A program made the position numbers and the translations under genes. From assembly GCF_004216695.1 (NCBI RefSeq), contig NZ_SGXC01000001.1, forward strand, positions 682,001 through 746,000: 64,000 bases of DNA, written 5' to 3'. Position 1 is the first letter of the stretch. Every line of letters begins with the position of its first letter. Under the pieces are notes generated by a model. It was not told where the DNA came from and searched no databases. It worked only from the letters and a program-made list of their open reading frames with translations. Source of the stretch: Pigmentiphaga kullae. GTDB taxonomy: Bacteria > Pseudomonadota > Gammaproteobacteria > Burkholderiales > Burkholderiaceae_B. This document shows positions 49,247-64,000 of this stretch, one piece after another.

Positions 49247-50075
49247 GTTCGACCCCTTCAGGATTTTCGTGCTGGCCGCGAGCGACTTCGATCGCTTCGC
49301 GCAACTCGTGGACCAGGCCGTTGAATTCGGGCGAGAACGTATCCTCGCGCCTGCGGGGACGAGGGAAGGGCACGATGTGCTCGGCAATCACCCGACCGGG
49401 ACGCGACGACATGACCACCACGCGGTCGGCCAGATAGACGGCTTCGCGCAGATCGTGCGTCACCAGCATCACGGTCGGGCGTCGGGCCATCCATACGTTC
49501 TGCAAGACCGACCACAGATCCTCGCGCGTGAAGATATCCAGCGCGGCGAACGGTTCGTCCAGCATCAACAGCGCCGGCTCGTGTATCAGCGCGCGGCATA
49601 GCGACGCCCGCTGCTGCATGCCGCCCGACAATTGGTGCGGCAGCTTTGCGCCGAACCCTCCCAGGCCGACCAGCTCGAGCAGTTCCTGGGCCTTGGCCAC
49701 GTACTCGGCCTTGTGGGCCCGCAGACGGCTGCGATGCCCGGTCGCCACCTCGAGGGGCAGCATGACGTTGTCCAGTATCGTGCGCCACGGCAGCAACGTG
49801 GGATTCTGAAACGCCATGCCGACGATAGACAGGGGTTGGTCCACCTCCTTGCCATCGATGATCACGCCGCCGTCGGTGGGCAGCCACAGGCCGCTCATCA
49901 ACCGCATCAGCGTCGATTTCCCGCACCCCGACGGTCCCACCACGGCGACCAGCTCGCCGCGGTTGACGGTCATGTTCAGATTCTCGAGCGCAAGCGTGCC
50001 ATCGAGGCCGCCATAGTGCATGGCGACGTCGTACAGTTCCGCGAAGGGGCGGCCTTCAGGAGACAGGCTGTTCAT
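49236..50075 (-). CDS. ABC transporter ATPase, SsuB/TauB type
   Basis: A 279-residue ATPase. Walker A is GPSGCGKST, the Q-loop lies in GMAFQNPTLLPW, the signature is LSGGMQQR, and Walker B is LLMLDEPFAALD followed by LVTHDLREA. ATG 50075 lies inside the last codons of the upstream flavoprotein gene (overlap of 20 bases), with AGGA further up. It works with the permease at 48380 and the binding protein at 52002. Confidence 0.93.
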   Translation of the reverse strand: MNSLSPEGRPFAELYDVAMHYGGLDGTLALENLNMTVNRGELVAVVGPSGCGKSTLMRLMSGLWLPTDGGVIIDGKEVDQPLSIVGMAFQNPTLLPWRTILDNVMLPLEVATGHRSRLRAHKAEYVAKAQELLELVGLGGFGAKLPHQLSGGMQQRASLCRALIHEPALLMLDEPFAALDIFTREDLWSVLQNVWMARRPTVMLVTHDLREAVYLADRVVVMSSRPGRVIAEHIVPFPRPRRREDTFSPEFNGLVHELREAIEVARGQHENPEGVEHAA

Positions 50076-51255
50076 GGGCGGACGTCCTGGAGAGTTCAAG
50101 GGTTTCTTCGCGCTTCTGCAGCCACCATGCATAGTTCCGCGGCAGCAGTTCATGCGGCCGCGCCAGGCCCAGTTCCCGCGCCGCGTGCGCGGCCCAGTTC
50201 GGGTTCCACATCATCTCGCGCGCCAACGCCACCAGGTCGCAGTCGCCCGCCCGAAGATAGCCCTCGGCCTGCTGCGCCTCGCGGATCAGACCCACCGCCA
50301 TGGTGGGCATGCCGACCTCGTCGCGGATGCGCCGCGCGAACGGCACGTGGTAGCCGGGCACGCGCGGCACCACGTGCAGCGTCAGCGGACCGTCGATGCC
50401 GCCCGACGAGCAGTCGAACATATCCACGCCGCGCTCTTTCAGGCGGCCCGCCAGCACGACCGTGTCGTCCAGGCTCCAGATGCCGCCGCGGCCGTCGACG
50501 CACGAACCGCGGAAGAACAGCGGCCGGTCGGCCGGCCACGCCGCCCGGACCGCTTCGATCAGCTCCAGGCCGAAGCGCATGCGTCCTTCGATGTCGCCGC
50601 CGTAGCCGTCGGTGCGATGGTTGGTGATCGGCGACAGGAACTGCTGGACGATGTAGCCGTGGGCGCCGTGGATCTCGCAGATGTCGAAGCCCGCGTCCAA
50701 TGAACGTTTGGCCGCATCGACGTGCGCCTGGATCACCGCGCGGATGTCGTCGCGGTCCATTTCCTTGGGCGCCATCGCGCCCTCCTTGAACGGAATGGGG
50801 CTGGGGGCCAGGCCCGACCAGGGCGGGCGGCCCTGCGCGGCGTCCGCCTCGCCCAGCGGCGAGAAGCCTTCCCACGGCGCCCGCGTCGCCACCTTGCGGC
50901 CGGCATGGCCCAGCTGGATGGCGCTGACCGTACCCTGCTCACGCAGGAAGTCGGTGATGCGGCGCCAGGCCTTGGCCTGCGCATCGGTGTAGATGCCCGG
51001 GCAGTCGTAGGTCTTGCGCGAGCGCTGCGAGACCGAGGTCTCTTCGCAGAAGACGATGCCGGCCCCGCCCAGCGCGAACTTGCCCAGGTGCACCAGGTGC
51101 CAGTCGGTGGGGCAGCCATCGACCGACCTGTACTGCGACATCGGCGACACGACGACACGGTTGCGCGCCGTCACGCCCCGCAGCGTCAGGGGCTGGAACA
51201 ACATCGGAACGTCCGTGTCCGGACCTTGTTCATGGGAAAGATTTTTTTCAGTCAT
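50056..51255 (-). CDS. Old-yellow-enzyme family NADH:flavin oxidoreductase (YqjM-like)
   Basis: A 399-residue FMN enzyme that reduces activated C=C bonds or oxidises related substrates. Motifs are SPMSQYRSVDGCPTDWHLVH near the N-terminus, IQLGHAGRKV (substrate His), EIHGAHGYIVQQFLSPITNH and GGDIEGRMRFGLELIEAV. It belongs to the YqjM/xenobiotic reductase branch by its GHAGRK motif. It is encoded between a GntR gene and ABC transporter genes, so the imported compound is probably an unsaturated cyclic molecule that it reduces. No monooxygenase for desulfonation is present. Confidence 0.9.
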   Translation of the reverse strand: MTEKNLSHEQGPDTDVPMLFQPLTLRGVTARNRVVVSPMSQYRSVDGCPTDWHLVHLGKFALGGAGIVFCEETSVSQRSRKTYDCPGIYTDAQAKAWRRITDFLREQGTVSAIQLGHAGRKVATRAPWEGFSPLGEADAAQGRPPWSGLAPSPIPFKEGAMAPKEMDRDDIRAVIQAHVDAAKRSLDAGFDICEIHGAHGYIVQQFLSPITNHRTDGYGGDIEGRMRFGLELIEAVRAAWPADRPLFFRGSCVDGRGGIWSLDDTVVLAGRLKERGVDMFDCSSGGIDGPLTLHVVPRVPGYHVPFARRIRDEVGMPTMAVGLIREAQQAEGYLRAGDCDLVALAREMMWNPNWAAHAARELGLARPHELLPRNYAWWLQKREETLELSRTSAHEQPVS

Positions 51256-51277
51256 GGTGGGGGGTATCCTGCAACGC

Positions 51278-51985
51278 CTAACGCTTCATCAGGCGGGAAA
51301 GAATGTTGTCGAGCACGTGGTCGAGATGCTCGGCCATGGCCTCTCTTGCGCGATCCTTGTCGCCCGTGGCCACGGCATCCAGCAAACGGAGATGCTCGGC
51401 CACGGTTTGGCGGAAATCGCCGGGAACCGGCGGCGTGGCGAACAGCATGGACCGGCGGCGCAACTGCTCGATCAGTTCGGCCATGGAGCGGCTGCCGCAG
51501 GCATCGCAGATGGCGCGGTGCAGTTCGAGATCGAGCGCGACGCGCTGCCGGTTGTCCCGGACCTCGCCCGCCAGCAACCGCTCCAGGGCCGCACGGAGAT
51601 CGGCGGCCGTATGGGGATCGATCCGGCCCGCGGCCTCGCCGGCCGCCTCGACCTCCAGCAGGCGCCGGATCTTGAGCAGTTCGAGGAATTCCTCCAGCGT
51701 GATGCGGCGCACTTCCAGCACGCCGTTGTTGCGCTGGATGAAGCCTTCGCCTTCGAGCCGCCGCAGGGTCTCGCGCAAAGGGGTGCGGGACACCCCCAGC
51801 CGTATCGACAGCTGCCGCTCCGAGATCGGCACCCCCAGCGGGATTTCATGAGTCAGCAGCATCTCGTGCAACTGCGCATGCAGCCGGTCGACCAGGCCCT
51901 TGCCGCCCTCCAGCAGCGGCTCGGTTCCGTCAGCGCCGGCTTCCTCGATGGGACGCACGCCGGCGCCGGATGAAATGATTGCCAT
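51278..51985 (-). CDS. GntR/FCD-family transcriptional regulator
   Basis: A 235-residue regulator with the winged helix ISERQLSIRLGVSRTPLRET, then LRRLEGEGFIQRNNG, and an FCD domain containing LHRAICDACGSRSM and AEHLRLLDAVATGD. The Asp and His metal/ligand positions of FCD are present. It lies inside a minus-strand operon, 16 nt after the ABC binding-protein gene and 22 nt before the flavoprotein gene, and likely represses it through sites in the 53020-53398 gap. Confidence 0.9.
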   Translation of the reverse strand: MAIISSGAGVRPIEEAGADGTEPLLEGGKGLVDRLHAQLHEMLLTHEIPLGVPISERQLSIRLGVSRTPLRETLRRLEGEGFIQRNNGVLEVRRITLEEFLELLKIRRLLEVEAAGEAAGRIDPHTAADLRAALERLLAGEVRDNRQRVALDLELHRAICDACGSRSMAELIEQLRRRSMLFATPPVPGDFRQTVAEHLRLLDAVATGDKDRAREAMAEHLDHVLDNILSRLMKR

Positions 51986-52001
51986 GAAGCGATGCTCCGC
52001 T

Positions 52002-53019
52002 TTATTGCACGGCCGACTTGCCGCCCGGCGCGAACTGCGGGTCGTACACCAGCGACACCGGCGGCGCGGCCGGCAGCTCGAAGCTTTCGGTGATGGTTGC
52101 GATGTTCTTCTTCATCCGGTCGGCATCGACATAGCCGATCCCGTGCTTCTGGACATTCGGCGTCCTAACCTTGTGGTCGATCAGGAACTGCAAGCGCTCG
52201 GTTTCGAGCACGGGATCGATCAACCTGTTGCGAGCGGCCACCGCCTTCGTCGCCGCCGCCGGGTCGGCTATCGCATCCCGCCATCCTTTCAGCGCGGCGG
52301 CGATGAACTTGCGGACCGCCTCGGGCTTGTCACGCAGCAATGCCTGGCTGGCGATGATGGAGTTGCTGTAGACATCCAGGCCGAAGTCCGCATATTCCAG
52401 AATGTCGACGTTCTCGCGCTTGGCGCCGCGCCCTTTCAGGTTGAACCAGGACGTGTAGTCATTGCCGATCACCGCGTCGACCTGTCCGGTCAACAGCATG
52501 GAGTCGCGCAACTGCGGCGAGATCTGCTTGTAGGTGATCTTGGACGGATCGACGTCGGCGATGCGCATCAGCGCCGGGAACAGACGCGCCGGCCCGTCGG
52601 CGTTGCCGCCGCCCACGGTCTTGCCTGCCAGGTCGGCCGGCTTCTTGATGCCCGCGCTCGACAGGCTGATGATCGCCTGCGGCGCGCGCTCGTACATCAC
52701 GAAAACAACCTTGGGCGTTACCGCGGGTTGACGGCTGGCGAACTCGACGAGCGTGGAGAAATCGGCCGAGGCCATCTGATAGGTCCCCGACGCCACGCGG
52801 GTTACCGCATCGCCCGATCCCGACGAAGGATCGATGGTGACATCGAGGCCCTGCTCTTTGAAATAACCGCGTTCGAGCGCCAGCAGATACGGTCCGGCAC
52901 TTCCATCGAGCGCGAAATTGAAGGCGAACTTGATGCGGGTCGGCTCGGCCGCTTGCGCCGAGCCCACCGCGAACAAAGCGCCCACGGCGAGAAGCTTCAA
53001 ACCTGAAAACAGTTTCATC
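52002..53019 (-). CDS. ABC transporter periplasmic binding protein, SsuA/NMT1 type
   Basis: A 338-residue binding protein. ATG 53019 has AGGA six bases upstream. The signal peptide ends GSAQAAEP (about residue 23). The SsuA/THI5-like fold shows GYFKEQGLDVTIDPSSGSGD, KPADLAGKTVGGGNADGPAR and ASQALLRDKPEAVRKFIAAA. It leads the minus-strand operon binding protein-GntR-flavoprotein-ATPase-permease. Relatives bind sulfonates, thiamine precursors, nitrate, or phthalate-like acids, so the ligand cannot be named. Confidence 0.9.
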
Positions 53020-53064
53020 GAAATCCTTTCCGGCTGTGGATGACAGGAAAGGCGGCATGCGAAC

Positions 53065-53089
53065 GTGGTGCATACATGTGGCATACCAC
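53065..53089. promoter_or_regulatory. Candidate GntR operator upstream of the ABC/OYE operon
   Basis: GTGGT-N15-ACCAC, 46-70 bp upstream of the binding-protein start. The GCATAC sequence occurs twice inside the block. The TGGT/ACCA arms fit FCD-type GntR sites, but the spacer is longer than in the classical site. Confidence 0.4.
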
Positions 53090-53398: not shown

Positions 53399-54391
53399 AT
53401 GAGCCCCCGTCTTCCCCACATTCCGCGCCGCCGGTCGCTGGCCGCGCTGGCCGCCGGCCTGCTGCTGGGCGCGGCCGGCACCGCCGCCGCCCAGGACTAT
53501 CCGCGCCAGCCCATCAAGCTGCTGGTGCCGTCGGTGCCCGGCAGCGCGCCCGACGCCTTCGCCCGGATCCTGGCGGAACCCTTGTCCGGCGGGCTGGGGC
53601 AGAAGGTCGTGGTCGAGAACAAGCCCGGCGCGGGCGGCCTGATCGCCATGGAGACGCTGGCCAAGGCGGAGCCCAACGGCTACACGCTGGCGATCGCCCA
53701 CGACGGCAACATGGCGATCAACACCATCGTCTACAAGCAACTGCCCTACCGGCCCTTGCAGGATTTCACGCCGGTCTCGCTGCTGGGCTTCAACGAGTTC
53801 GTGCTGGCCGCCAACCCCACCCTGAAGATCAAGACCTTCGCCGAATTCGTGGCCTACGCGCGCGGCAGGCAGGGCAAGGCCACGTACGGGTCGGCGGGCG
53901 TGGGTTCGCCCAACCACCTGTTCATGGAGCAACTGATGCAGGCCGCCGGCATCCCGCTTTCGCACGTGCCCTACAAGGGCGGTCCGGCGGCGATGCAGGA
54001 TCTGCTGGGCGGCCAGATCGACGTCATGCTGGTCGGGCTCTCGCCCGCGCTGCCGCACATCCAGGGCGGCAAGCTGGTGGCCGTGGCGGTGCCGCAGGCC
54101 GCGCGCTCGAAGATGCTGCCCGGCACGCCCACGGTGGCCGAGTCCATCCCGGGCTTCTCGACGCGCACCTGGTTCGGCCTGTACGGTCCGGCCGGCCTGC
54201 CGGCGGCCGTGGTCGAGCGCCTGAACCGGGAACTGCGCCGCGTGCTGGCCGATCCGTCGGTGAAGGACCGCATCGCCGCGCAGGGCATGGTGGCCGAGGC
54301 CGGTTCGCCGGCCACGCTGGCGGCCATGACGGAAGAAGACATCCGCCGCTACCGCCAACTGGCCGACGCGATCAAATTAGAAGCCAATTGA
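53399..54391 (+). CDS. Bug/TctC-family periplasmic solute receptor
   Basis: A 330-residue Bug receptor; the twin-Arg-rich leader PRRRSLAALAAGLLLGAAG ends near AAAQD (about residue 32). Hallmarks are YPRQPIKLLVPSVPGSAPDA, VVENKPGAGGLIA, SHVPYKGGPAAMQD and PGTPTVAESI. Its first loop, SAPDAFAR, matches that of the receptor at 63428 (SAPDVLAR). The two flank the sugar-acid operon and are more alike than other Bugs in the window. It starts the operon behind the palindrome at 53334. The expected ligand is a sugar acid or a sulfated acid. Confidence 0.92.
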   Translation: MSPRLPHIPRRRSLAALAAGLLLGAAGTAAAQDYPRQPIKLLVPSVPGSAPDAFARILAEPLSGGLGQKVVVENKPGAGGLIAMETLAKAEPNGYTLAIAHDGNMAINTIVYKQLPYRPLQDFTPVSLLGFNEFVLAANPTLKIKTFAEFVAYARGRQGKATYGSAGVGSPNHLFMEQLMQAAGIPLSHVPYKGGPAAMQDLLGGQIDVMLVGLSPALPHIQGGKLVAVAVPQAARSKMLPGTPTVAESIPGFSTRTWFGLYGPAGLPAAVVERLNRELRRVLADPSVKDRIAAQGMVAEAGSPATLAAMTEEDIRRYRQLADAIKLEAN

Positions 54392-54403
54392 ACCCACCCC
54401 TAC

Positions 54404-54453
54404 GCGCTTCGCGCGCCCCTCAAGGGGCGGCACTGGCGGACCGGCAAAGCCGG
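54404..54453. repeat. Cluster of three GC-rich hairpins
   Basis: GCGC-TTC-GCGC (54404-54414), GCCCCT-CA-AGGGGC (54415-54428) and CCGGC-AAA-GCCGG (54441-54453) follow each other in the gap between the Bug and sulfatase genes. Short hairpin blocks like this are common intergenic elements in Burkholderiales. Here it may reduce read-through or stabilise the Bug mRNA, letting the receptor be made in excess over the enzymes. Confidence 0.5.
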
Positions 54454-54510
54454 ATCCGCTGTGCCCTGGATCGGACCGCGCACTTCCGCGCGGCGTCATA
54501 GAGCATCGAA

Positions 54511-56079
54511 ATGTCTACCCTGCGGCCTAATTTTCTGATCTTCGTGACCGACCAGCAGCGCGCGGACCACCTCGGCTGCTATGGCAACACGCAGGTGCGC
54601 ACCCCGCACATCGACGGCATCGCCGCGCGCGGCACGGTGTTCGAGCGGTGCTACGTGGCCTCGCCGGCGTGCATGCCCAACCGCGCCGCGATCATGACCG
54701 GGCGCATGCCCGGCGCGGCCGGGGCGCGCATGAACGGCGTGCCGCTGCCGCTGGACAGCCGCACCTTCGCCGACGCGCTGCGCGAGGCCGGCTGGCGCAC
54801 GGCGCTGATCGGCAAGAGTCACCTGCAGAACATGACGGACTTCCAGCCGTCCTGGCGCCAAGGCGAGGCCGCCGACCGGCCGCAGGCGCGGCGGGACGAC
54901 CGCGACAGCCCGGCCTACGAGCAGGAGTCGGTGGTGCGCTGGCGGGATCCGGACCATGCCGTGCGCCTGCCGTACTACGGTTTCGATCACGCCGAACTGT
55001 GCCTGGAGCACGGCGACGAAGTGGGCGGCGCCTACGACCGCTGGTTGCATGCCCGCTGCCCCGAGGCCGACACGCTGCGCGGCCCGGACCACGCCCTGCC
55101 CGGCGGCAAGACGGCGGCGCCGCAGGCCTGGCGCACCGCGCTGCCCGAGGACCTGTATCCCAGCGCCTTCGTCCGGGACCGCGCCATCGACTGGCTGGAA
55201 GACCATGCGGCACGGGGCGGCCAGCCCTTCCTGCTGGCCTGTTCCTTTCCCGACCCGCACCACCCCTTCACCCCGCCCGGCCGCTACTGGGACATGTACC
55301 GGCCCGAGGACATCGAACTACCCGCGACCTGCGGGCCGGCCACGCCGGCCGACACGCCGCTCAAGCGCGCGCTGCACGAGGAACTGGTTGCCGGGCGCCG
55401 TTCCACGGCCGGCAGCCGGGTCATCGCCGTGACGCAGGACGAGGCCCGCGCGGCCATCGCGCTGAACTACGGCGCCATCACCTGCATCGACGACATGGTC
55501 GGCGCCATCCTGGCCAGGCTGCAAGCCCTGGACCTGGCGCGCGACACCGTGGTGCTGTTCCTGAGCGACCACGGCGATTTCATGGGCGACCACGGCCTGC
55601 TGTTCAAGGGGCCGCTGCACTATCGCAGCGTGATCCGCATGCCGCTGATCTGGGCCGACCCCCAGGCCGGCGCGGGCGGCCGGCGCGCCGATCTCGCCAG
55701 CGCGATCGACATCGGCCCGACCATCCTGGCGCGCGCGGGCCTGGCCGCGCCGCATGGGACGCAGGGACGCGACCTCGCCCCCGCCGCCGCGCCGGCCGCG
55801 GCGCGCGCCTCGGTCCTGGTCGAGGAAGAAGGCCACCGCCCCATGCCCGGCAGCGGCCTGCCCAAGGTTCGCACGCTGGTCACGCCGGACTGGCGGCTGT
55901 CGGTCCACGCCTTCGAGGAATGGGGGGAACTCTACGATCTGCGCGAAGACCCCGACGAACGCGTCAACCGCTGGGACGATCCGGCCTGCGCCGCCGTGCG
56001 GGCGGAACTGACGCTGGAACTGGTGCGCGCCATGGCGCGCCACGCGGACGAATGCCCGCTGCCCACGCGGATGGCCTGA
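54511..56079 (+). CDS. Type I sulfatase (formylglycine-dependent)
   Basis: A 522-residue alkaline-phosphatase-superfamily sulfatase. The cysteine to be converted to formylglycine is C54, in C54-M-P56-N-R58, within SPACMPNRAAIMTGR. Metal sites are near FVTDQQRADHLG and SDHGDFMGDHGLL, and LIGKSH carries the sulfate-binding Lys/His. No signal peptide is present, so it acts in the cytoplasm. It is related to choline- and arylsulfatases. Placed in a sugar-acid operon, it points to a sulfate ester of a sugar or aldonic acid as substrate. It lies 119 bp after the Bug gene; the formylglycine-generating enzyme is not in this window. Confidence 0.9.
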   Translation: MSTLRPNFLIFVTDQQRADHLGCYGNTQVRTPHIDGIAARGTVFERCYVASPACMPNRAAIMTGRMPGAAGARMNGVPLPLDSRTFADALREAGWRTALIGKSHLQNMTDFQPSWRQGEAADRPQARRDDRDSPAYEQESVVRWRDPDHAVRLPYYGFDHAELCLEHGDEVGGAYDRWLHARCPEADTLRGPDHALPGGKTAAPQAWRTALPEDLYPSAFVRDRAIDWLEDHAARGGQPFLLACSFPDPHHPFTPPGRYWDMYRPEDIELPATCGPATPADTPLKRALHEELVAGRRSTAGSRVIAVTQDEARAAIALNYGAITCIDDMVGAILARLQALDLARDTVVLFLSDHGDFMGDHGLLFKGPLHYRSVIRMPLIWADPQAGAGGRRADLASAIDIGPTILARAGLAAPHGTQGRDLAPAAAPAAARASVLVEEEGHRPMPGSGLPKVRTLVTPDWRLSVHAFEEWGELYDLREDPDERVNRWDDPACAAVRAELTLELVRAMARHADECPLPTRMA

Positions 56080-56089
56080 GGAGACAGGT

Positions 56090-56857
56090 ATGCTTACCGA
56101 ACCAGTGGCCAAAGTGACAGGGATCACCCGTATGCAGCTTATTTCCCGTATCCCCGGCGATACCCCCAACATCACGCGCCGGACCATCCGCGACCAGATC
56201 AGCGACAAGCTGGCCTACATGATCCATTCGGGCCTGCTGCGGCCGGGCGACGAGCTGCCTTCCGAGCGCGAGCTGGCGACCACGCTGGGGGTGTCCCGCG
56301 AGACGGTCCGGGCCGCCATCGGCATGTTGCAGGCATGGCGCATGCTGGAGGTCAGCCAGGGGGCGCGCACGCGCGTGCTGGGGCCGGGCACGGTGGCGGT
56401 GCAGGACTCGGTCAGCACGCTGCGCGACCTGGGCGACCGCTCGCTGGAAGAAGTGGCCGAGGCGCGCGCCGCGGTGGAAGTACAGGTAATCCGCCTGGCG
56501 AGCCGCCGCATCACGCCCGCGCAATTGAACCGGCTGGACCGCCTGGTGGCGGACCAGGAAACCATGATGGACGACCCCGTCCGCTTCCAGATCTCGGACC
56601 AGGAATTCCACGAAGTGCTGTACCGCGCCTGCGGCAACGGCCTGCTGGCCGACGTGGTGTTCGATTTCTACGGCTACGCGCTGGAGCACCGGCGCCGCGC
56701 CTTGCAGCGGTCGGGCGCCATCGCGCACAGCGTGACCGACCACCGCGCCATCGTCGCCGCGCTCAAGAGCGGCGACCCGGAAACGGCAGTGGCCGCCATG
56801 CAGCGGCACCTGGACCAGGTCCACCGCACCACGCTACAGGAAATCGATCACTCATGA
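56090..56857 (+). CDS. GntR/FCD-family transcriptional regulator
   Basis: A 255-residue regulator. The winged helix (LPSERELATTLGVSRETVRA, residues about 60-105) and FCD domain (AEARAAVEVQVIRLASRRIT, then DQEFHEVLYRACGNGLL and VTDHRAIVAALKSGD) are clear. GGAG lies six bases before ATG 56090. Its stop overlaps the next start (ATGA). Being inside the sugar-acid operon, it most likely controls the operon through the AACTGGTCT palindrome and responds to a sugar acid, as do GntR proteins of this branch (UxuR, ExuR, LldR relatives). Confidence 0.92.
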   Translation: MLTEPVAKVTGITRMQLISRIPGDTPNITRRTIRDQISDKLAYMIHSGLLRPGDELPSERELATTLGVSRETVRAAIGMLQAWRMLEVSQGARTRVLGPGTVAVQDSVSTLRDLGDRSLEEVAEARAAVEVQVIRLASRRITPAQLNRLDRLVADQETMMDDPVRFQISDQEFHEVLYRACGNGLLADVVFDFYGYALEHRRRALQRSGAIAHSVTDHRAIVAALKSGDPETAVAAMQRHLDQVHRTTLQEIDHS

Positions 56858-57774
56858 GCACTCCCGTTTCCCTGGACCCGCGCGCCGCGGGCCTGTTCGG
56901 GCCCGACAGCCGGCTCGAGCGCCTGTACACCGGCGCCACCTGGAGCGAAGGCCCCGTATGGCTGGCCGCGCGGCGCATGGTGTTGTGGAGCGACATCCCC
57001 AACAACCGCATCCTGGCCTGGGACGAGCGCGAAGGCGGACGGGTCTGGCGCGACCGGGTCGAGTTCACCAACGGCCACACGGCTTCGGCGGACGGTTCGC
57101 TGCTGCACTGCTCGCACGGCATGCGCGCCATCCTGCGCACGCGCTTCGACAGCGACGGCCGGCCCGGCGCGCCCGAGGTGCTGGTCGACCGCTACCAGGG
57201 CCGCCGCCTGAATTCGCCCAACGACCTGGTCGAGAAGCGCGACGGCAGCATCTGGTTCACCGATCCGCCCTACGGCATCCTGTCCGACCGCGAAGGCCAC
57301 CAGGCGCCGTCCGAGCTGCGCGCCAACTACGTGTTCCGCTACGACCCGGCCACCGGCGCGCTGGACGTCGCCAGCGACCTTGCCGAAGAACCCAACGGCC
57401 TGGCGTTCTCGCCCGACGAAAGCGTGCTGTACGTGACCGACACCTCGGCAGCGCTGCGCCAGGACGGCGGCGGCAACCATCACATTCTCGCCTTCGACGT
57501 GACCGGCGGGCGCACGCTGGCCCGCCCCCGCGTATTCGCCGTGGTCGAGCCGGGGCTGGCCGACGGCATACGGGTGGACGAACGCGGCTGGGTCTACACC
57601 AGCAGCGAGGACAGCGTCCAGGTCTACCACCCCGACGGCACCCGCCTGGCCCGCATCCCCGTCCCGGAGAAGGTCGGCAACCTGACTTTCGGCGGCGCCG
57701 CGCGCGACGAACTCTACATCTGCGCGTCGACGTCGCTGTACCGCATCCGCCTGAACACGCACGGTCATTCCTGA
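56854..57774 (+). CDS. SMP-30/gluconolactonase-family lactonase
   Basis: A 306-residue six-bladed beta-propeller lactonase. Calcium/active-site residues match SMP-30: Glu in WSEGPVW, Asn in RLNSPNDLV and Asp in LADGIRVDERG. It hydrolyses aldono-lactones to aldonates. Its start is inside the GntR stop (ATGA). It is followed after nine bases by another beta-propeller gene. In this pathway it would open the lactone before the dehydratase acts. Confidence 0.9.
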   Translation: MSTPVSLDPRAAGLFGPDSRLERLYTGATWSEGPVWLAARRMVLWSDIPNNRILAWDEREGGRVWRDRVEFTNGHTASADGSLLHCSHGMRAILRTRFDSDGRPGAPEVLVDRYQGRRLNSPNDLVEKRDGSIWFTDPPYGILSDREGHQAPSELRANYVFRYDPATGALDVASDLAEEPNGLAFSPDESVLYVTDTSAALRQDGGGNHHILAFDVTGGRTLARPRVFAVVEPGLADGIRVDERGWVYTSSEDSVQVYHPDGTRLARIPVPEKVGNLTFGGAARDELYICASTSLYRIRLNTHGHS

Positions 57775-57783
57775 GATCCCGCC

Positions 57784-58710
57784 ATGAGCCAAGACATCCT
57801 TTTACTGGTAGAAAAATGTTCGCACTGCATCAGCTGGTACGACCCCGAGTCGGGCGAGCGGCTGCGCAGCCTGCCTCTTCCTGATTTCCCGCATGAGTTC
57901 GCGATCGACTCGGCCCAGCGCCATGTCTACGTGGGGCACTACGGCGTCGAGACCTCCGGCCACGTCGGCCCGGGGGGATCCGCGATCCTGCAGATCGATA
58001 TTCGTTCGGCCCAACTGGTAAGGTCTATAGACCTGTTTCCGTTCAACCGCATCCACGGCATGCAGATGGACCAGCACGACCGGCTCTACGCGCTGAGCGA
58101 GGAAAAGGCCATGCTGCTGGTGCTGGACCAGCCCGACACCGACACGGCGCCCAAGCGCGCCATGCCCTCGGGCGGCGTGAAAAGCCATTTGTTCGCTCTG
58201 ACGCGCGACGGCCAGACCGCCTTCAGCATGAACCTGCTCAGCCACACGGTGACCAAGCTGCGCCCCTGGGAGCCGCTGTCCCAGCCCGTGGCCTGCCACC
58301 CCGGCCTCAAGCCCGAGGGCTGCTGCCTGAGCGAGGACGAGCGCACGCTGTTCGTCAGCAACCGCTGGAGCAACACGCTGTCGGCCATCGACACCGACAC
58401 GATGCAGGTGCGCCTGACCGTGCCCTCGCGCGAGGACGCGACCCGCATCTACCGCGCCGGCAACCGCCTTTTGGTGACGAACTACGGCGACCGCAGCGTC
58501 TCGGTAGTCGACCCCGCCACGTTGCAGGAAACGGGCCACGTGAAGATGGACGCGCGCGCCATCGCGCTGTCGCTCGACCCCACCCGGCCGCTGGCCTACA
58601 TCTCGCAGGACGACGACCGCGTCGGCGTGCTGGACCTGCAATCGCTGCGCTTTACGCGCTTCATCGCCACGCAGCGCGAACCCGACGTCTCCCGGATCGT
58701 CCGGATCTGA
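57784..58710 (+). CDS. YncE/WD-like beta-propeller protein, cytoplasmic
   Basis: A 308-residue repeat protein. Repeat units such as DQHDRLYALSEEKAMLLVLD, DERTLFVSNRWSNTLSAIDT and GNRLLVTNYGDRSVSVVDPA mark a YncE-type seven-bladed propeller. There is no signal peptide, although most YncE proteins are exported. A Cys-rich start (LVEKCSHCISWYD) is unusual. It is encoded between a lactonase and a PdxA-like enzyme and co-transcribed. It may be an isomerase or a lactonase of the 6-phosphogluconolactonase class; no catalytic motif is certain. Confidence 0.72.
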   Translation: MSQDILLLVEKCSHCISWYDPESGERLRSLPLPDFPHEFAIDSAQRHVYVGHYGVETSGHVGPGGSAILQIDIRSAQLVRSIDLFPFNRIHGMQMDQHDRLYALSEEKAMLLVLDQPDTDTAPKRAMPSGGVKSHLFALTRDGQTAFSMNLLSHTVTKLRPWEPLSQPVACHPGLKPEGCCLSEDERTLFVSNRWSNTLSAIDTDTMQVRLTVPSREDATRIYRAGNRLLVTNYGDRSVSVVDPATLQETGHVKMDARAIALSLDPTRPLAYISQDDDRVGVLDLQSLRFTRFIATQREPDVSRIVRI

Positions 58711-58740
58711 ACCCTTGACCCTCTTGATGGCTGACACTCC

Positions 58741-59769
58741 ATGACTACCCCTCTTCGTCCCGTCGTCGCGCTTACCCTGGGCGACCCGGCGGGCATCGGT
58801 CCCGAACTCGTCGCCCGGCTGCTGTCGCGGCCGGACGTCCCGCGCCAGGCCAACATCGTGCTGGTGGGCGACCCCTGGCTCTGGCAGCAAGGCCAGCGCG
58901 TGGCCGGCGTGCGGGTCGAAACCCGCCCCGTGGAAGATTTCGCGCAAGTCCGCGCGCGTCCCGACAGCGGCGTGCCCGCCTTCCTGCCCATGGACACCGT
59001 GGACCCGGTGGACGTGATCGTGGGCACGGCGCGGGCGGCGGGCGGAAAGTCCGTGCTGCAAGTGCTGGACCGCTGCATGACCGCTGCCACGGGCGGCGAG
59101 ATCGACGCCATCTGCTTCGCGCCGCTGAACAAGCACGCGATGAAGCTGGGCGGCCTGCGCCACGAGGACGAGCTGCATCATTTCGCCGAATACCTGGGCG
59201 TGACGACCTATTTCTGCGAGTTCAACACCATGGGCTCGCTGTGGACCTCGCGCATCTCGTCGCACATCCCCATCAAGGACGTGCCGCGCTATATCGACAA
59301 GGACCGCATCAAGGACGCCACGCGCCTGATCCACCGCTCGCTGCTGGCCAACGGCATCGAAACCCCGCGCGTCGCGGTAGCGGCGCTCAACCCGCATGGC
59401 GGGGATGGCGGCACCTGCGGGCGGGAAGAAGTCGAGATCATCGAACCCGCGGTGCGCGAACTGGTGGCCGAAGGCCTGCCCATCGAAGGCCCGTATCCCG
59501 CCGACACCATCTTCCTGAAGGCCCGCGACGGCCAGGTAGACGCCGTCGTCACCATGTACCACGACCAGGGCCAGATCGCGATCAAGCTGCTGGGATTCTC
59601 CAAGGGCGTGACGGTCCAGGGCGGGCTGCCCATTCCCATCACCACGCCCGCCCACGGCACGGCCTACGACATCGCCGGCCAGGGCCGGGCCGACGACAAC
59701 GCCATCGCCAACGCCTACGCCATCGCCTGCCGCATGGGCCTGGCCCAGCGCCAGGCCGCCACCCGATAA
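58741..59769 (+). CDS. PdxA-family dehydrogenase (PdxA2-like)
   Basis: A 342-residue member of the 4-hydroxythreonine-4-phosphate dehydrogenase family. Metal-binding regions are [30 protein letters not shown] and [15 protein letters not shown], all as in PdxA, and [13 protein letters not shown] opens the protein. In a catabolic operon this matches PdxA2, which oxidises 4-phospho-D-threonate or -erythronate; TphB of terephthalate catabolism is also in this family. No DUF1537 kinase, the usual PdxA2 partner, is present, so the phosphorylated substrate may be absent and the role different. Not the housekeeping B6 enzyme by context. Confidence 0.82.
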
Positions 59770-59789
59770 CTTCCTTTCTGCGAACCATC

Positions 59790-60962
59790 ATGAAAATCCA
59801 ATCCGTCCGCGCCCGTGTCTTCGAATGGAAGGGCAAGACCGTTCCGCCCCAGGCCAACTTCTGCTCCAACGCCATGGACGCCCTGTACGACCGCGGCGAT
59901 TCCATGAAGACCTTCCGCTTCCACGGCTGGACCGTGGTCGAGATCGAGACCGACGACGGCATCGTCGGCCTGGGCAACGTCGCGCTGGCGCCCCATATCG
60001 CCAAGGCCATCATCGATCAGTACCTGGCCCCGCTGGTCGTCGGCCAGGACCCCTGGGACTACGAATACCTGTGGCAGCGCATGTACCGCTCCACGCTGGC
60101 CTGGGGCCGCAAGGGCGTGGCCATGGCGGCCATCTCGGCGGTGGACCTGGCGATCTGGGACATCCTGGGCAAGTCGGTGAACAAGCCGGTGTTCAAGCTG
60201 CTGGGCGGCCGCACCAAGGAACGCATCCCCTGCTACTACTCCAAGCTGTACCGGGGCGACCTGAAGGCCATGCAGGAAGAGGCGCAGACCTTCCTGGACC
60301 AGGGCTTCACCGCCTTCAAGATGCGCTTCGGCTACGGCCCCAACCACGGCACGCGCGGCGTGGCCGAGAACCTGAAGTCGGTGCAGGCCGTGCGCGAGGT
60401 CATCGGCTACGAGTCGGACCTGATGCTGGAGTGCTACATGGGCTGGGACCTGGACTACGCGCGCCGCATGCTGCCCAAGCTGGAGAAGTTCGAGCCGCGC
60501 TGGCTGGAGGAACCCGTCATCGCCGACGACGTGGACGGCTATGCCGAACTGTCGCGGCTGAGCGCCATTCCCATCTCGGGCGGCGAACACGAATTCACGC
60601 TGCATGGCTTTCGCCAGTTGCTGGACAAGAAGGCGGTGTCGGTCGTGCAGTACGACACCAACCGCGTCGGCGGCATTACCGCGGCCCACAAGATCAATGC
60701 GCTGTGCGAGGCGCATTCGATACCCGTGATCCCGCACGCCGGCCAGATGCACAACTACCACCTGACCATGAGCACGCTGGCCTCGCCCATGAGCGAATAC
60801 TTCCCGCAGTTCGACGTGGAAGTGGGCAACGAGCTCTTCTACTACATCTTCAAGGGCGAGCCGGTCGCCAAGGACGGCTTCCTGCAGCTGGACGACACGC
60901 TGCCGGGCCTGGGCCTGACCCTGAACACCGATTATCTCGATCAATTCCAGATCAGCGAGTAA
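59790..60962 (+). CDS. Enolase-superfamily sugar-acid dehydratase, L-rhamnonate-dehydratase-like
   Basis: A 390-residue mandelate-racemase-type enzyme that removes water from an aldonate to give a 2-keto-3-deoxy acid. Metal ligands are seen as [19 protein letters not shown] and ISGGEHEF, and the base/acid His in [12 protein letters not shown]. RhmD of E. coli has Asp (LMLDCWM) where this has Glu (LMLECYM), so the assignment is to the group, not the enzyme. The N-terminal cap ([20 protein letters not shown]) should set specificity. It follows PdxA by 20 nt and precedes the FAH gene by five. Confidence 0.85.
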
Positions 60963-60967
60963 AGACC

Positions 60968-61957
60968 ATGCGCGTCATCCAATTCATCGAGGACGGTCAG
61001 CTTTGCGTGGGCGTCGTGGCCGGCGACGACGAGATCGAAGTCAGCGGCGCCCGCGAGGGCGTGTACGGACTGGCCTTGCAGGCGGCCCGCGAAGGCGTGG
61101 CGCTGGAAGCGCTGGTCCGGCGCCTGGACTCGGGCCGCCGCGTCCGCTACCAGTCGCTGGTGGACGAGCGGCGCCTGCTGCCGCCGGTCACCCATCCCGA
61201 CGCCGCCCGCATGCTGATCTCGGGCACCGGCCTGACCCACCTGGGCAGCGCCGCCTCGCGCGATGCCATGCACGCCAAGCTGCAGGAAGACACCAACCTG
61301 ACCGACTCCATGAAGATGTTCAAGCTGGGCGTCGAGGGCGGCAAGCCGGCGGCGGGCCAGGCGGGCGCGCAGCCCGAGTGGTTCTACAAGGGCGACGGCA
61401 GCCTGCTGGTGGCGCCGGAGTGCGACTTCCCCGTGCCCGGCTTCGCGCTGGACGCGGGCGAGGAGCCCGAGCTGGTGGGCGTGTACGTGATCGACGACCA
61501 GGGCGCGCCGCGCCGCATCGGCTTCGCCGTGGGCAACGAATTCTCGGACCACCTGACCGAGCGCTTCAACTACCTGTGGCTGGCGCATTCCAAGCTGCGG
61601 CCCTGCGCGTTCGGGCCGGAACTGCTGCTGGGCGAGCCGCCCGCCGACCTGCGGGGCGCCAGCCGCATCGTGCGCGGCGGCGAGGTCCTGTGGGAAAAGC
61701 CCTTCGTCACCGGCGAGGCCAACATGAGCCACACCCTGGCCAACCTGGAACACCACCACTTCAAGTACCCGCAGTTCCGCCGCCCCGGCGACCTGCACGT
61801 GCACTACTTCGGCACGGCCACGCTGAGCTTCTCCGACCAGATCCGCACCGTGGACGGCGACCGCTTCGAGATTTCGCTGGACGGCTTCGGCCGCCCCCTG
61901 CGCAACGCCGTCCGCTTCGAGCCCGCGCCGGCCGTGGTCGGCGTCACGTCCCTGTAG
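60968..61957 (+). CDS. Fumarylacetoacetase-fold protein (AraD1/KDG-type)
   Basis: A 329-residue FAH-family enzyme. The C-terminal catalytic domain shows LISGTGLTHLGSAASRD, PELVGVYVIDDQGAPRRIGF, AVGNEFSDHLTERFN and LGEPPADLRGASRI. In sugar-acid pathways such proteins either dehydrate 2-keto-3-deoxypentonates to alpha-ketoglutarate semialdehyde or hydrolyse 2,4-diketo-3-deoxyaldonates. A semialdehyde-type ALDH follows eight bases later, which favours the first. It starts six bases after the dehydratase stop. Confidence 0.85.
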   Translation: MRVIQFIEDGQLCVGVVAGDDEIEVSGAREGVYGLALQAAREGVALEALVRRLDSGRRVRYQSLVDERRLLPPVTHPDAARMLISGTGLTHLGSAASRDAMHAKLQEDTNLTDSMKMFKLGVEGGKPAAGQAGAQPEWFYKGDGSLLVAPECDFPVPGFALDAGEEPELVGVYVIDDQGAPRRIGFAVGNEFSDHLTERFNYLWLAHSKLRPCAFGPELLLGEPPADLRGASRIVRGGEVLWEKPFVTGEANMSHTLANLEHHHFKYPQFRRPGDLHVHYFGTATLSFSDQIRTVDGDRFEISLDGFGRPLRNAVRFEPAPAVVGVTSL

Positions 61958-61964
61958 AACCGAC

Positions 61965-63407
61965 ATGAACACACCCGAATACCATCTTTACATCGACGGC
62001 GAATGGATGCCGGGCGTCTCGGCCCGCCCCAACGTCAATCCCTCGGACACCAGCGACGTAATCGGCCTGTACGCCCAGGCCGACGCCGGGCTGGCGCACC
62101 GCGCCATCGCCGCGGCGGCGCGGGCCCGGCCGGCCTGGGCCGCGTCCACGCCCCAGCAGCGCTTCGACGTGCTGGACGCGGTCGGCAACGAACTGCTGGC
62201 GCGCAAGGAAGAGATCGGCCGCATGCTGTCGCGCGAGGAAGGCAAGACCCTGCCCGAGGGCATGGGCGAAGTCGCGCGCGCCGCCATGATCTTCAAGTTC
62301 TTCGCCGGCGAAGCGCTGCGCACGCCCGGCGACCTGCTGCCCTCGGTGCGGCCCAACGTCGGCGTCGAAGTGTTCCGCCAGCCCGTGGGCACGGTCGGCC
62401 TGATCACGCCGTGGAACTTCCCCATTGCCATCCCCGCGTGGAAGATCGCGCCGGCGCTGGCTTACGGCAACACCGTGGTCTTCAAACCCGCCGAACTGGT
62501 GCCGGGTTCGGCCTGGCTGCTGGCCGAGATCCTGTCGCGCACCGCGCTGCCCAAGGGCGCGTTCAACCTCGTCATGGGCGCGGGCTCGGCCGTGGGCCAG
62601 GCATTCGTCGACTCCCCCGAGGTGCAGGCCATCAGCTTCACCGGATCGGTGGCCACCGGCCGCCGCATCATCGCCGGGGCCGCCGCGCGCGGCGCCAAGG
62701 TGCAATGCGAGATGGGCGGCAAGAACCCGCTGGTGGTGCTGGACGACGCCAACCTGGAGCAGGCCGTGGAAACCGCGGTGCAGGGTTCGTACTTTTCCAC
62801 CGGCCAGCGCTGCACGGCGTCGAGCAAGCTGATCGTGACCGAGAACATCCATGACCGCTTCGTGAAGGCGATGCAGGCACGCATGGCCACGCTGAACGTC
62901 GGCCACGCGTTGCGGGCCGGCGTGGACATCGGCCCGGTCGTGGACGAGCGCCAGTTGGCGCAGAACCTGTCCTACCTGGACATCGCCCGGCGCGAGGGAG
63001 CGCAGGCCATCACCGGCGGCGAAACGCTGGAGCGCGACACCACGGGCTATTTCCAAGCGCCCGCGCTGGTGGCCGGCACCGAGCCCGGCATGCGCATCAA
63101 CCGCGAGGAAGTCTTCGGCCCCGTTGCCAGCGTGCTGCGCGCCCGCGATTACGACGAGGCCCTGCACCTGGCCAACGACACCGAGTTCGGACTGGCCTCG
63201 GGCATCTGCACGACCTCGTTGAAGTACGCCGCGCATTTCCGGCAGCACGCCCAGGCGGGCATGGTGATGGTGAACCTGCCCACGGCCGGCGTCGACTATC
63301 ACGTGCCCTTCGGGGGGACCAAGGCTTCGTCCTACGGCCCGCGCGAGCAGGGCCGCCATGCGGCCGAGTTCTACACCACGGTCAAGACCGCCTACATCGC
63401 AAGCTGA
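61965..63407 (+). CDS. Aldehyde dehydrogenase, alpha-ketoglutarate-semialdehyde type
   Basis: A 480-residue NAD(P) ALDH. The cofactor motif is ISFTGSVATGR, the general base lies in CEMGGKNPLVVL and the nucleophile Cys in FSTGQRCTASSK. The C-terminal PFGGTKASSYGPREQGRHAA matches 2,5-dioxopentanoate (alpha-ketoglutarate semialdehyde) dehydrogenases. It would turn the semialdehyde into 2-oxoglutarate, linking a pentonate to the TCA cycle. It is preceded by the FAH gene (eight bases) and followed after 20 nt by a Bug receptor. Confidence 0.88.
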   Translation: MNTPEYHLYIDGEWMPGVSARPNVNPSDTSDVIGLYAQADAGLAHRAIAAAARARPAWAASTPQQRFDVLDAVGNELLARKEEIGRMLSREEGKTLPEGMGEVARAAMIFKFFAGEALRTPGDLLPSVRPNVGVEVFRQPVGTVGLITPWNFPIAIPAWKIAPALAYGNTVVFKPAELVPGSAWLLAEILSRTALPKGAFNLVMGAGSAVGQAFVDSPEVQAISFTGSVATGRRIIAGAAARGAKVQCEMGGKNPLVVLDDANLEQAVETAVQGSYFSTGQRCTASSKLIVTENIHDRFVKAMQARMATLNVGHALRAGVDIGPVVDERQLAQNLSYLDIARREGAQAITGGETLERDTTGYFQAPALVAGTEPGMRINREEVFGPVASVLRARDYDEALHLANDTEFGLASGICTTSLKYAAHFRQHAQAGMVMVNLPTAGVDYHVPFGGTKASSYGPREQGRHAAEFYTTVKTAYIAS

Positions 63408-63427
63408 AAACCATCCAGGAGACAAAC

Positions 63428-64000
63428 ATGCACTTCCCCACCCGCCACAGGCTGGCCCTGGCCGCCGCCTGCACGCTGCTAGCCGCGCCCGCCGTCCAGG
63501 CCCAGGGCAACTTTCCCAGCCAGCCGGTCAGGATCATCGTCGGCTCGGAGGCCGGCAGCGCGCCCGACGTGCTGGCCCGCGTGCTGGGCAAGGAACTGTC
63601 CGCGGGACTGGGGCAGGCCATCATCGTCGAGAACCGCGCCGGCGCCACCGGCACCATAGGCGCCAATGCGGTGGCCTCGGCCGCGCCCGACGGCTACACG
63701 CTGCTGATGGGCACGGTGTCCAACATCGCGCTGGCCCCATCCTTCTACCCCATCAAGTACAAGCCCACCGAAAGCTTCACCCCCATCAGCATGGTCGCCT
63801 CGGTGCCGCTGGTGCTGGTGGCGTCCCCCGCCACCGGCATCGCCAGCGTCGAACAGTTGCGCGCCAAGCTGAAACAGGCTGCCAAGGGTTCGTACAGCTA
63901 TTCGTCGCCCGGCGTGGGCGGCCCCCAGCACCTGGCCGGCGTGCTGCTGGGCAAGCAGATGGGCACGGAACTGCTGCATGTTCCCTACAAGAGCGGCGGC
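63428..64000 (+). CDS. Bug/TctC-family periplasmic solute receptor (runs off the right edge)
   Basis: The first 191 codons of a Bug receptor (about 325 expected). GGAG precedes the ATG. The signal peptide ends APAVQAQG at about residue 26. FPSQPVRIIVGSEAGSAPDV, IVENRAGATGTIG and HVPYKSGG are typical. It is the last gene seen of the sugar-acid operon and the second Bug belonging to it; its first ligand loop (SAPDVLAR) is close to that of the Bug at 53399. The downstream part lies outside the window. Confidence 0.9.
   Translation, partial: MHFPTRHRLALAAACTLLAAPAVQAQGNFPSQPVRIIVGSEAGSAPDVLARVLGKELSAGLGQAIIVENRAGATGTIGANAVASAAPDGYTLLMGTVSNIALAPSFYPIKYKPTESFTPISMVASVPLVLVASPATGIASVEQLRAKLKQAAKGSYSYSSPGVGGPQHLAGVLLGKQMGTELLHVPYKSGG

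Follow-up and report, generated by a model that had tools for sequence, protein, structure and literature searches.

A conserved Bug receptor–sulfatase operon in Pigmentiphaga kullae as a candidate module for sulfated L-pentonate catabolism in a genome that lacks FGE

We analysed a window of 64,000 nucleotides from Pigmentiphaga kullae (contig NZ_SGXC01000001.1, positions 682,001-746,000) and found that a ten-gene operon, all on the + strand, occupies 53399-64000 of the window; neighbouring genes overlap by as much as 4 bp or stand up to 119 bp apart, and protein families are backed by Pfam and NCBIfam profile matches. It opens with BugA, a TctC-type periplasmic receptor (53399..54391; PF03401, 224 bits) paired with sulfatase 1 (54511..56079; PF00884, 140.9 bits), a Cys-type enzyme (C54-M-P-N-R) with no evident signal peptide, as judged throughout by eye from N-termini with no predictor. 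Downstream lie a GntR/FCD regulator (56090 or 56132..56857; PF00392, PF07729), an SMP-30/gluconolactonase-type lactonase (56854..57774; PF08450, 138 bits) whose nearest solved structure is the exported gluconolactonase 3dr2 (E 8e-64), and a YVTN-type beta-propeller protein, again without evident signal peptide (57784..58710; TIGR02276 repeat above cut-off). A PdxA-like dehydrogenase (58741..59769; PF04166, 291 bits) precedes an acid-sugar dehydratase of the mandelate-racemase group of the enolase superfamily (59790..60962; PF13378, PF02746), a GguC/AraD1 protein of probable FAH fold (60968..61957; NF040903, 503.8 bits, cut-off 340), an aldehyde dehydrogenase (ALDH) nearest to the alpha-ketoglutarate-semialdehyde (KGSA) type (61965..63407) and a second TctC receptor, BugB (63428..64408, C1:745428-746408; PF03401), whose last 408 bp lie beyond the window. 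The operon itself reaches past the window end: sulfatase 2 (C1:746409-747857) begins right after the BugB stop codon and is followed by a membrane-like protein of 269 aa (C1:747895-748704), both of which belong to it. The first-pass annotation had read ten genes, in one direction and with short gaps, as one operon; all are present, in an order conserved in relatives.

The signatures of the two sulfatases, CMPNR and CVPAR, match the C-x-P-x-R pattern of type I formylglycine sulfatases, and the catalytic residues of sulfatase 1 are complete (D14, C54, R58, K102, H104, H250, D353, H354, K366). Its best fold matches include SpAS1, SpAS2, an Enterococcus arylsulfatase and the phosphonate monoester hydrolases 4uph, 2vqr and 2w8s, at only 20-27% identity; by sequence, sulfatase 1 is nearest to the sulfatase 4upi (SpAS1) and sulfatase 2 to choline sulfatases, with both under the choline sulfatase cut-off TIGR03417 (206 and 300 against 433 bits) and under the PehA cut-off. 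Fold, motif, metal and catalytic residues and a probable cytoplasmic location are thus shared with SpAS1/SpAS2, BetC and phosphonate monoester hydrolases, while the low identity, the pairing with Bug receptors and the lack of an FGE in the genome set the operon enzymes apart; the sulfatase fold alone cannot tell whether such an enzyme hydrolyses sulfate esters, phosphonates or phosphodiesters. The suggestion that a cytoplasmic sulfatase is unusual finds no support here, as this genome alone has 17 Cys-type sulfatase genes without an evident signal peptide, and choline sulfatase is already known to be cytoplasmic. In alignment, Cys and Arg of the motif are present in all 17, with Pro in 14 and Ser in 3; 16 are full-length and one (C1:234180) is truncated.

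A formylglycine-generating enzyme (FGE), whose presence had been named as a check on the sulfatase, was not found in the genome, which is 99.9% complete: the true FGE has been deleted, the sole PF03781 protein is a DinB+FGE-like protein (EgtB-type), and the anaerobic-type maturase model (anSME, TIGR03942) has no match. At the deletion scar the two flanking sulfatase genes are fused, and six genomes of the genus have the undeleted order with FGE. Assembly collapse was rejected as the cause, the flanking sulfatase genes being merely 30-73% alike per 100 alignment columns. Because FGE is deleted, the sulfatases would be fully active in this strain only if matured without it.

It is a serious possibility, falling little short of probable, that the sulfatases are dead weight here, with all 17 carrying an unmodified Cys after a recent FGE deletion and the operon working on an unsulfated substrate only. 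The clean deletion between its flanking sulfatase genes fits this account, as does the one truncated sulfatase, and among the genomes listed the FGE-bearing members of the genus mostly have more A1 matches (19, 14, 25, 26, 22 and 3) than the FGE-less ones (21 in this genome, then 10, 7, 3 and 0). The full-length state of the other 16 speaks against it, and so does selection: median dN/dS against G073, over a span that includes time before FGE loss, was 0.076 for ten sulfatases and 0.098 for their neighbours. Two further points tell against it: excerpts of PMC6189696 report slow turnover by unmodified choline sulfatase, and other lineages without any PF03781 match retain such sulfatases.

We surveyed PF03781 matches against sulfatases across genomes of the family, scoring up to 10 candidates in most genomes. 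Paenalcaligenes hominis DSM 26613 gave no PF03781 match. Among the matches listed, 37 of 73 sulfatase-bearing genomes had no high-scoring PF03781 match (these 37 include nine with matches of 130-170 bits), and 9 had none at all; high-scoring matches occurred in 36/73 genomes with A1-type sulfatases and 28/78 without, no significant difference (Fisher p 0.10, among the matches listed). An anSME scored above cut-off in one of the 38 genomes searched (G108), and one match of 213 bits, below cut-off, came from G130. Sulfatases examined in FGE-less genomes of the family retain their catalytic residues and are under purifying selection. Loss of the catalytic Cys in such genomes was considered and rejected: five apparently motif-less loci all have CMPNR, differing only in the G of the TG that follows; a further locus, L111, breaks off ahead of the motif. 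Replacement of the motif Pro by Ser or Ala is not limited to FGE-less genomes.

We tentatively propose that Burkholderiaceae hold a large class of Cys sulfatases, cytoplasmic and coupled to receptors, that may be active without FGE or anSME, via a novel maturase or formylglycine-free catalysis, and, jointly with this, that the present genome may serve as a natural FGE deletion mutant with 17 such sulfatases and the six FGE-bearing genomes of the genus as comparators. The situation resembles that of E. coli, whose Cys-to-formylglycine activity is called elusive in the available portion of PMC6189696, in that Cys-type sulfatases occur in cells without known FGE; the E. coli results reported there concern recombinant enzymes, whereas the Cys sulfatases described here are native ones, retained across many genomes. 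Native Cys sulfatases under selection without a known maturase make FGE-independent formylglycine formation directly testable, with close FGE-bearing relatives as natural controls.

We next consider the carbon route. The dehydratase has 15 matches among 151 family genomes, its own included, at 78-100% identity, and matches the solved structures 3stp, 3ssz and 3sqs (E 1e-186 to 1e-190), which are named as putative. In 10 of these 15 loci a DHDPS-type gene lies near the dehydratase gene, 71-92% identical to the copy in L090, whose protein matches L-2-keto-3-deoxyarabonate (L-KDA) dehydratase (7c0c/3fkk, E about 1e-150). GguC lies near the dehydratase in 3 of the 15, occurs where the L-KDA dehydratase relatives are missing, and replaces that relative in the operon described here. 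It has no Pfam match at E 0.001, and its best Foldseek match is 2-keto-3-deoxy-D-arabinonate dehydratase (2q1a, E 2e-9), from a low-confidence model (pTM 0.63); GguC is probably a 2-keto-3-deoxy-pentonate dehydratase, a role that such a fold match supports without proving. Dehydratase and ALDH are both under every NCBIfam cut-off listed, the best family for the ALDH being the KGSA-type NF042993 (501 bits, cut-off 770). L-rhamnonate was set aside as first-choice substrate, as the dehydratase falls under the L-rhamnonate dehydratase cut-off NF011968 (241 against 393 bits) and its partner in relatives is the L-KDA dehydratase homolog. Since that homolog stands near the dehydratase in GguC-less relatives, and GguC in its place here, L-pentonate is favoured over L-rhamnonate, and the route probably leads, on sequence grounds, from L-pentonate to 2-oxoglutarate; this supports and narrows the earlier proposal of a path from a lactone or aldonate to 2-oxoglutarate.

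A lactonase and an acid-sugar dehydratase together with a probable 2-keto-3-deoxy-pentonate dehydratase and an ALDH closest to the KGSA type recall the oxidative L-arabinose/pentonate (Weimberg-type) route, as does the close L-KDA dehydratase homolog in the operon's relatives. The usual dehydratase of that route is of the IlvD/EDD type; unlike it, the operon enzyme belongs to the enolase superfamily, and the operon further differs in that GguC takes the place of L-KDA dehydratase and that sulfatases and Bugs, two of each, are present in addition, as is a PdxA-like enzyme. The last falls under the PdxA equivalog cut-off TIGR00557 (264.4 against 290.35 bits) and is by its sequence a predicted paralog, set apart from the vitamin B6 enzyme. 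The route as proposed contains no step for it, despite its gene lying within 4.4 kb of the dehydratase gene in all 15 loci, and within 150 bp in 11.

Both G073 (L086) and the single-contig genome G183 (L301) retain the complete gene order, BugA through membrane-like protein. L107, L108 and P. humi (L109, 77-94% identity) retain it as far as GguC or the start of ALDH, where those stretches end; the operon is therefore not a chance assembly. Other lineages, too, have receptor–sulfatase pairs next to these pathway genes, in rearranged order and mostly at 54-85% identity (membrane-like protein 48-59%). In L184, a Burkholderiales MAG, BugA–sulfatase 1 and BugB–sulfatase 2 both lie among PdxA, dehydratase, SMP-30 and propeller genes (56-85% identity; 56%/61% for the BugA/sulfatase 1 pair); in L097 and L099 the BugB–sulfatase 2 pair adjoins SMP-30 and dehydratase genes, and in L110 BugA–sulfatase 1 (60%/64%) is beside SMP-30. 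This recurrence supports the link between sulfatase and sugar acid that had been suggested from the operon alone. The propeller gene stays next to SMP-30 in L096, L097 and L184.

Coupling of sulfatases to Bug receptors extends across the genome, which has at least 150 Bugs. A same-strand Bug lies within 400 bp of 15 of the 17 sulfatases, by a reading of neighbourhoods that was script-checked for genes called by script, compared with 31 of 308 other genes (Fisher p 2e-12), a background that is overstated since it was drawn from sulfatase-centred loci. Automatic counting gave 13 of 18 sulfatase-model genes, of which three have no Cys motif and from which two of the 17 are omitted (Fisher p 5e-9). 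Distances between receptors and between their sulfatases are correlated (Mantel r 0.60, reached in 0 of 10000 permutations). In 86 loci selected among the matches listed (58 FGE-less, 28 FGE-bearing; sulfatase fragments under 700 bp left out), Bug adjacency did not clearly differ between FGE-less (49/59) and FGE-bearing genomes (20/29; p 0.17), the former label taking in G001 and G011, which has a 154-bit PF03781 match.

On balance we favour the view that the operon serves to catabolize a sulfate ester, either of an L-pentonate or of its lactone. What was observed is how the genes are ordered, their families, the catalytic residues, the synteny kept in relatives and the exchange of GguC for the L-KDA dehydratase relative; the substrate, the stage at which desulfation occurs, the TTT protein involved and what the PdxA-like and propeller proteins do are inferred. 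The receptor–sulfatase pairing speaks for this view, as do the dN/dS values of the two operon sulfatases, 0.137 and 0.104 (G000 versus G073). Against it weigh the FGE deletion, the PdxA-like enzyme left without a step, the low-confidence GguC model, the dehydratase and ALDH scores under the cut-offs, a sulfatase fold shared with phosphonate hydrolases and the dehydratase loci in which no sulfatase is seen. The two orphan Bug receptors would bind two forms of the ester and pass them to a common TTT membrane component encoded elsewhere; neither operon Bug adjoins a TctA or TctB gene, and none is among the identified operon proteins. The sulfate groups would be removed by a pair of cytoplasmic type I sulfatases, one for each receptor and each from a different subfamily, SMP-30 (perhaps also the second propeller) would open the lactone, and the enolase-type dehydratase would form L-2-keto-3-deoxy-pentonate. 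GguC, whose place is taken by the DHDPS-type L-KDA dehydratase in most relatives, would convert this to 2-oxoglutarate semialdehyde, which the ALDH would oxidize to 2-oxoglutarate, with GntR regulating the operon from within.

We consider it unlikely that this is an ordinary pathway for L-pentonate or a similar sugar acid, into which the two Bug–sulfatase pairs, as independent scavengers of unrelated sulfate esters, were inserted by chance within a sulfatase-rich island. A stretch of about 55 kb (C1:735399-790312) does contain five such pairs, of which three sit among other genes; moreover, no sulfatase is seen in 11 of the 15 dehydratase loci (9.5-20 kb covered per locus) and sulfatase 1 is missing from 13, so the core pathway is independent of desulfation. 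Both sulfatase subfamilies, however, recur by pathway genes in the four rearranged loci described above. It is improbable that the enzymes are instead phosphonate monoester or phosphodiester hydrolases serving import of a phosphorylated or phosphonylated sugar acid: although such hydrolases are among the nearest folds, PdxA relatives act on phosphorylated acids and a PdxA-like gene accompanies every dehydratase locus, the sequence matches of both sulfatases favour sulfatases, and no kinase, phosphatase or C-P lyase is among the identified operon proteins.

The module thus offers a concrete candidate pathway for sulfated L-pentonate. Most orphan Bug receptors have no known ligand; a Bug fixed next to a sulfatase predicts a sulfate ester as ligand, which would apply to about 16 Bugs here and 69 more in further loci examined. 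Functions of Bordetella Bugs are mainly unassigned, according to excerpts of PMC11452294. The massive Bug expansion, and operon Bugs without TctA/TctB, resemble the Bug/orphan TTT receptors of Bordetella, Cupriavidus and Rhodoplanes described in the accessible parts of PMC5994714 and PMC5812351; unlike in those reports, whose texts do not use the word sulfatase, a subset of Bugs here is coupled to sulfatases. Literature listings yielded nothing relevant on a sulfatase–arabonate link, Pigmentiphaga sulfatases or 3STP/3SSZ/3SQS, and PMC6277516, the single paper to cover sulfatase, TTT and Bordetella, does not link them in the portion available. Four relatives, L095, L097, L098 and L099, have a Bug accompanied by TctA close to PdxA.

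All ten genes of the operon that the first-pass annotation had delineated lie where it had placed them, on the forward strand and spaced by anything from a 4-bp overlap to a 119-bp gap, and Pfam and NCBIfam confirmed their families; the operon and pathway it proposed were largely right. The first gene, for a TctC-type periplasmic receptor (Bug; here BugA), is paired with a sulfatase (SULF1, 54511-56079), while the tenth, BugB, ends beyond the window at C1:746408 (C1 and C3 are contigs of this genome). A second sulfatase, SULF2, begins on the forward strand at the very next base (C1:746409-747857, outside the window) and is followed by a 269-residue membrane-like protein with no Pfam or NCBIfam match. 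The operon is also carried by G073, a genome of the same genus. Upstream, a divergent cluster on the reverse strand (48380-53084) comprises, as labelled by eye, an ABC permease, an ATPase, an NADH:flavin oxidoreductase-like protein, a GntR regulator and a solute-binding protein.

A cytoplasmic sulfatase had been thought unusual, which does not hold in this genome: it has 25 PF00884 matches, and 17 Cys-type genes have no evident signal peptide, as judged by reading N-termini. The unusual features are instead receptor pairing and a missing maturase. Gene neighbourhoods place a same-strand Bug directly adjacent, within 191 bp, to 15 of the 17; another (C1:26932) has a Bug 487 bp off with one gene between, and only that at C3:90856-92442 has none nearby. 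Upstream of the latter are TRAP transporter-like genes and a MarR-like regulator, the same pairing logic with another transporter family. An automatic count overlooked two of the 17, took in three genes without the Cys motif and gave 13 of 18. Against a background of 31 of 308 other genes of the same loci with a same-strand Bug within 400 bp, Fisher p values were 2e-12 (15/17) and 5e-9 (13/18). The 6.2-Mb genome holds at least 150 Bug genes (150 of 422 candidates were scored, with 150 matches), making the base rate matter, yet this abundance does not explain the pairing. Within the genome, Bug distances correlate with sulfatase distances (Mantel r 0.60 over 16 pairs; 0 of 10000 permutations).

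The pairing extends to 86 further loci, where a Bug lies within 400 bp of 49 of 59 sulfatases from genomes without a formylglycine-generating enzyme (FGE) and of 20 of 29 from FGE-bearing ones, all 69 on the sulfatase's strand. Among the 80 best named loci, metagenome-assembled genomes (MAGs) included, the Bug was on the same strand in 33 and the opposite strand in one; many others were alphaproteobacterial by title or incomplete. The operon's two receptors presumably share a membrane partner of the tripartite tricarboxylate transporter (TTT) type. A text word search did not find "sulfatase" in two papers on TTT/Bug expansion (PMC5994714, PMC5812351), the portion of PMC6277516 consulted draws no link between sulfatase and TTT/Bug, and no Bug-sulfatase pairs appeared in titles or abstract openings among the matches listed in a literature search on sulfatase with TTT or Bug. 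An island at C1:735399-790312 packs five Bug-sulfatase pairs into about 55 kb, among genes labelled by eye as oxygenase-like, nitrilase-like and ABC transporter.

The first-pass annotation had proposed checking the genome for an FGE. PF03781 matches a single protein here, which is DinB+FGE-like, of the EgtB type and adjoins an EgtD-like methyltransferase; a genome search for the other known maturase (anSME, TIGR03942) gave no match. In six genomes of the genus (G073, G181, G182, G183, G184 and G185), FGE is flanked by a pair of exported-type sulfatase genes (A and B); the window's genome has a single such gene (C3:325984-328227; locus L047:8984-11227), an in-frame A/B fusion from which the intervening FGE is gone. 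Its first four fifths resemble A (mostly about 88-98% per 100 columns) and the rest resembles B (about 82-95%), against only 30-73% similarity between A and B; its upstream flank is as in A and its downstream flank as in B. FGE was therefore lost in this lineage through deletion between A and B.

A high-scoring FGE is present in 6 of the 11 genomes of this genus and missing from the window's genome (G000), G043, G096, G116 and G135. Cys-type sulfatase matches (A1; some genes give two) number 19, 14, 25, 26, 22 and 3 in FGE-bearing genomes and 21 (window's genome), 10, 7, 3 and 0 in FGE-less ones, G135 having none at 1e-40; the tendency of FGE-bearing genomes to more matches is evidence against full FGE independence.

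Of 185 aligned sulfatases, 184 keep the catalytic Cys; the exception (L111) is truncated. Comparisons of FGE-less genomes within a single genus gave a dN/dS of 0.036-0.29 for 15 of the 16 pairs with at least 60% identity, and the remaining pair was saturated; between the window's genome and G073, a comparison that also spans time before the deletion, the median was 0.076 for ten sulfatases versus 0.098 for 93 other genes. Selection thus still retains Cys sulfatases in genomes that show no known maturase. According to the parts of the sources consulted, the E. coli formylglycine-forming machinery is unidentified and unmodified choline sulfatase turns over slowly (PMC6189696), and residual activity in M. 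tuberculosis without FGE may stem from type II and III sulfatases (PMC3141025). The motif Pro is replaced (CMANR, CMSNR), with other catalytic residues kept, in L141, L161, C1:203244, C1:473788 and C1:788693. One of the 17 Cys sulfatases, near C1:234180 (L014:1393-2703), is truncated to 436 residues although it shares about 82% identity with an intact paralog; it is probably a pseudogene.

In the wider family, 73 of 151 genomes have A1 sulfatases at 1e-40, 36 with and 37 without a PF03781 match of at least 200 bits; such high-scoring matches were not significantly commoner than in the 78 genomes without A1 (28/78, p 0.10). Nine of the 37 have no PF03781 match whatsoever (G013, G065, G071, G076, G086, G095, G099, G104 and G150; completeness 82% for G065, 95% or more for the others) and together hold 23 A1 matches; of the other 28, nine have 130-170-bit matches that may or may not be true FGEs and 19 only weaker ones. 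anSME exceeded its cut-off in one of 38 genomes searched (G108), a 213-bit match in G130 falling below it. Among 30 chosen named genomes, completeness not given, 11 have no PF03781 match of 190 bits, including Paenalcaligenes hominis DSM 26613, with none at all.

Receptor-sulfatase pairs recur beside pathway genes outside Pigmentiphaga. A Burkholderiales MAG locus (L184) reads Bug-PdxA-dehydratase-BugA-SULF1-L-2-keto-3-deoxyarabonate (L-KDA) dehydratase-BugB-SULF2-membrane-like protein-SMP30-propeller, its eight named operon and pathway proteins, first Bug excepted, being 56-85% identical. SMP30-propeller-membrane-like protein-SULF2-BugB (L097, genome G041) and the same without propeller (L099, G063) adjoin a dehydratase and a Bug-TctA-PdxA set; at L110 the genes run BugA-SULF1-SMP30-membrane-like protein, and at the short locus L111 SULF1-SMP30-membrane-like protein. 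Because content is kept while order varies across lineages, chance is hard to invoke. Counting against the link, 11 of 15 dehydratase loci have no sulfatase in the stretch fetched; at L096, GntR, SMP30, propeller, PdxA, dehydratase and L-KDA dehydratase are all present with no sulfatase among them. The likeliest reading is that the sulfatases act as feeders extending the pathway to sulfated substrates, which they would desulfate in vivo. SULF1 and SULF2 belong to different subfamilies (28-30% identity), suggesting that they serve either two positions of esterification or two separate esters.

Counting the dehydratase itself, the 151 family genomes contain 15 matches to it, at 78-100% identity. 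Near it, a DHDPS-type gene (71-92% identical to the L090 copy) occurs in 10 of 15 loci (L087-L094, L096 and L098) and GguC in three (own genome, L086 and L095); neither lies within the 20 kb fetched for L097 and L099. The L090 protein matches L-KDA dehydratase (7c0c, 3fkk; E about 1e-150). GguC had no Pfam or PDB sequence match at E 0.001, and its model (mean pLDDT 58.5, pTM 0.63) gave 2-keto-3-deoxy-D-arabinonate dehydratase (2q1a, E 2e-9) as first fold match. It thus seems that a single step falls to GguC in some loci and to L-KDA dehydratase in others, which points to an L-pentonate substrate and 2-oxoglutarate semialdehyde as product; for the sulfated sugar acid or lactone first proposed, a sulfated L-pentonate or lactone is the better description. 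In the reaction order we propose, ALDH would oxidise the semialdehyde; its best NCBIfam match is alpha-ketoglutaric semialdehyde dehydrogenase (NF042993), under cut-off. The dehydratase very closely matches 3stp, 3ssz and 3sqs (E 1e-186 to 1e-190), entries named only as putative or by superfamily, and a literature search for them listed no paper on the subject. A PdxA-like gene (here 58741-59769) is no more than 4.4 kb from the dehydratase in all 15 loci; despite this association, the proposed route has no step for it.
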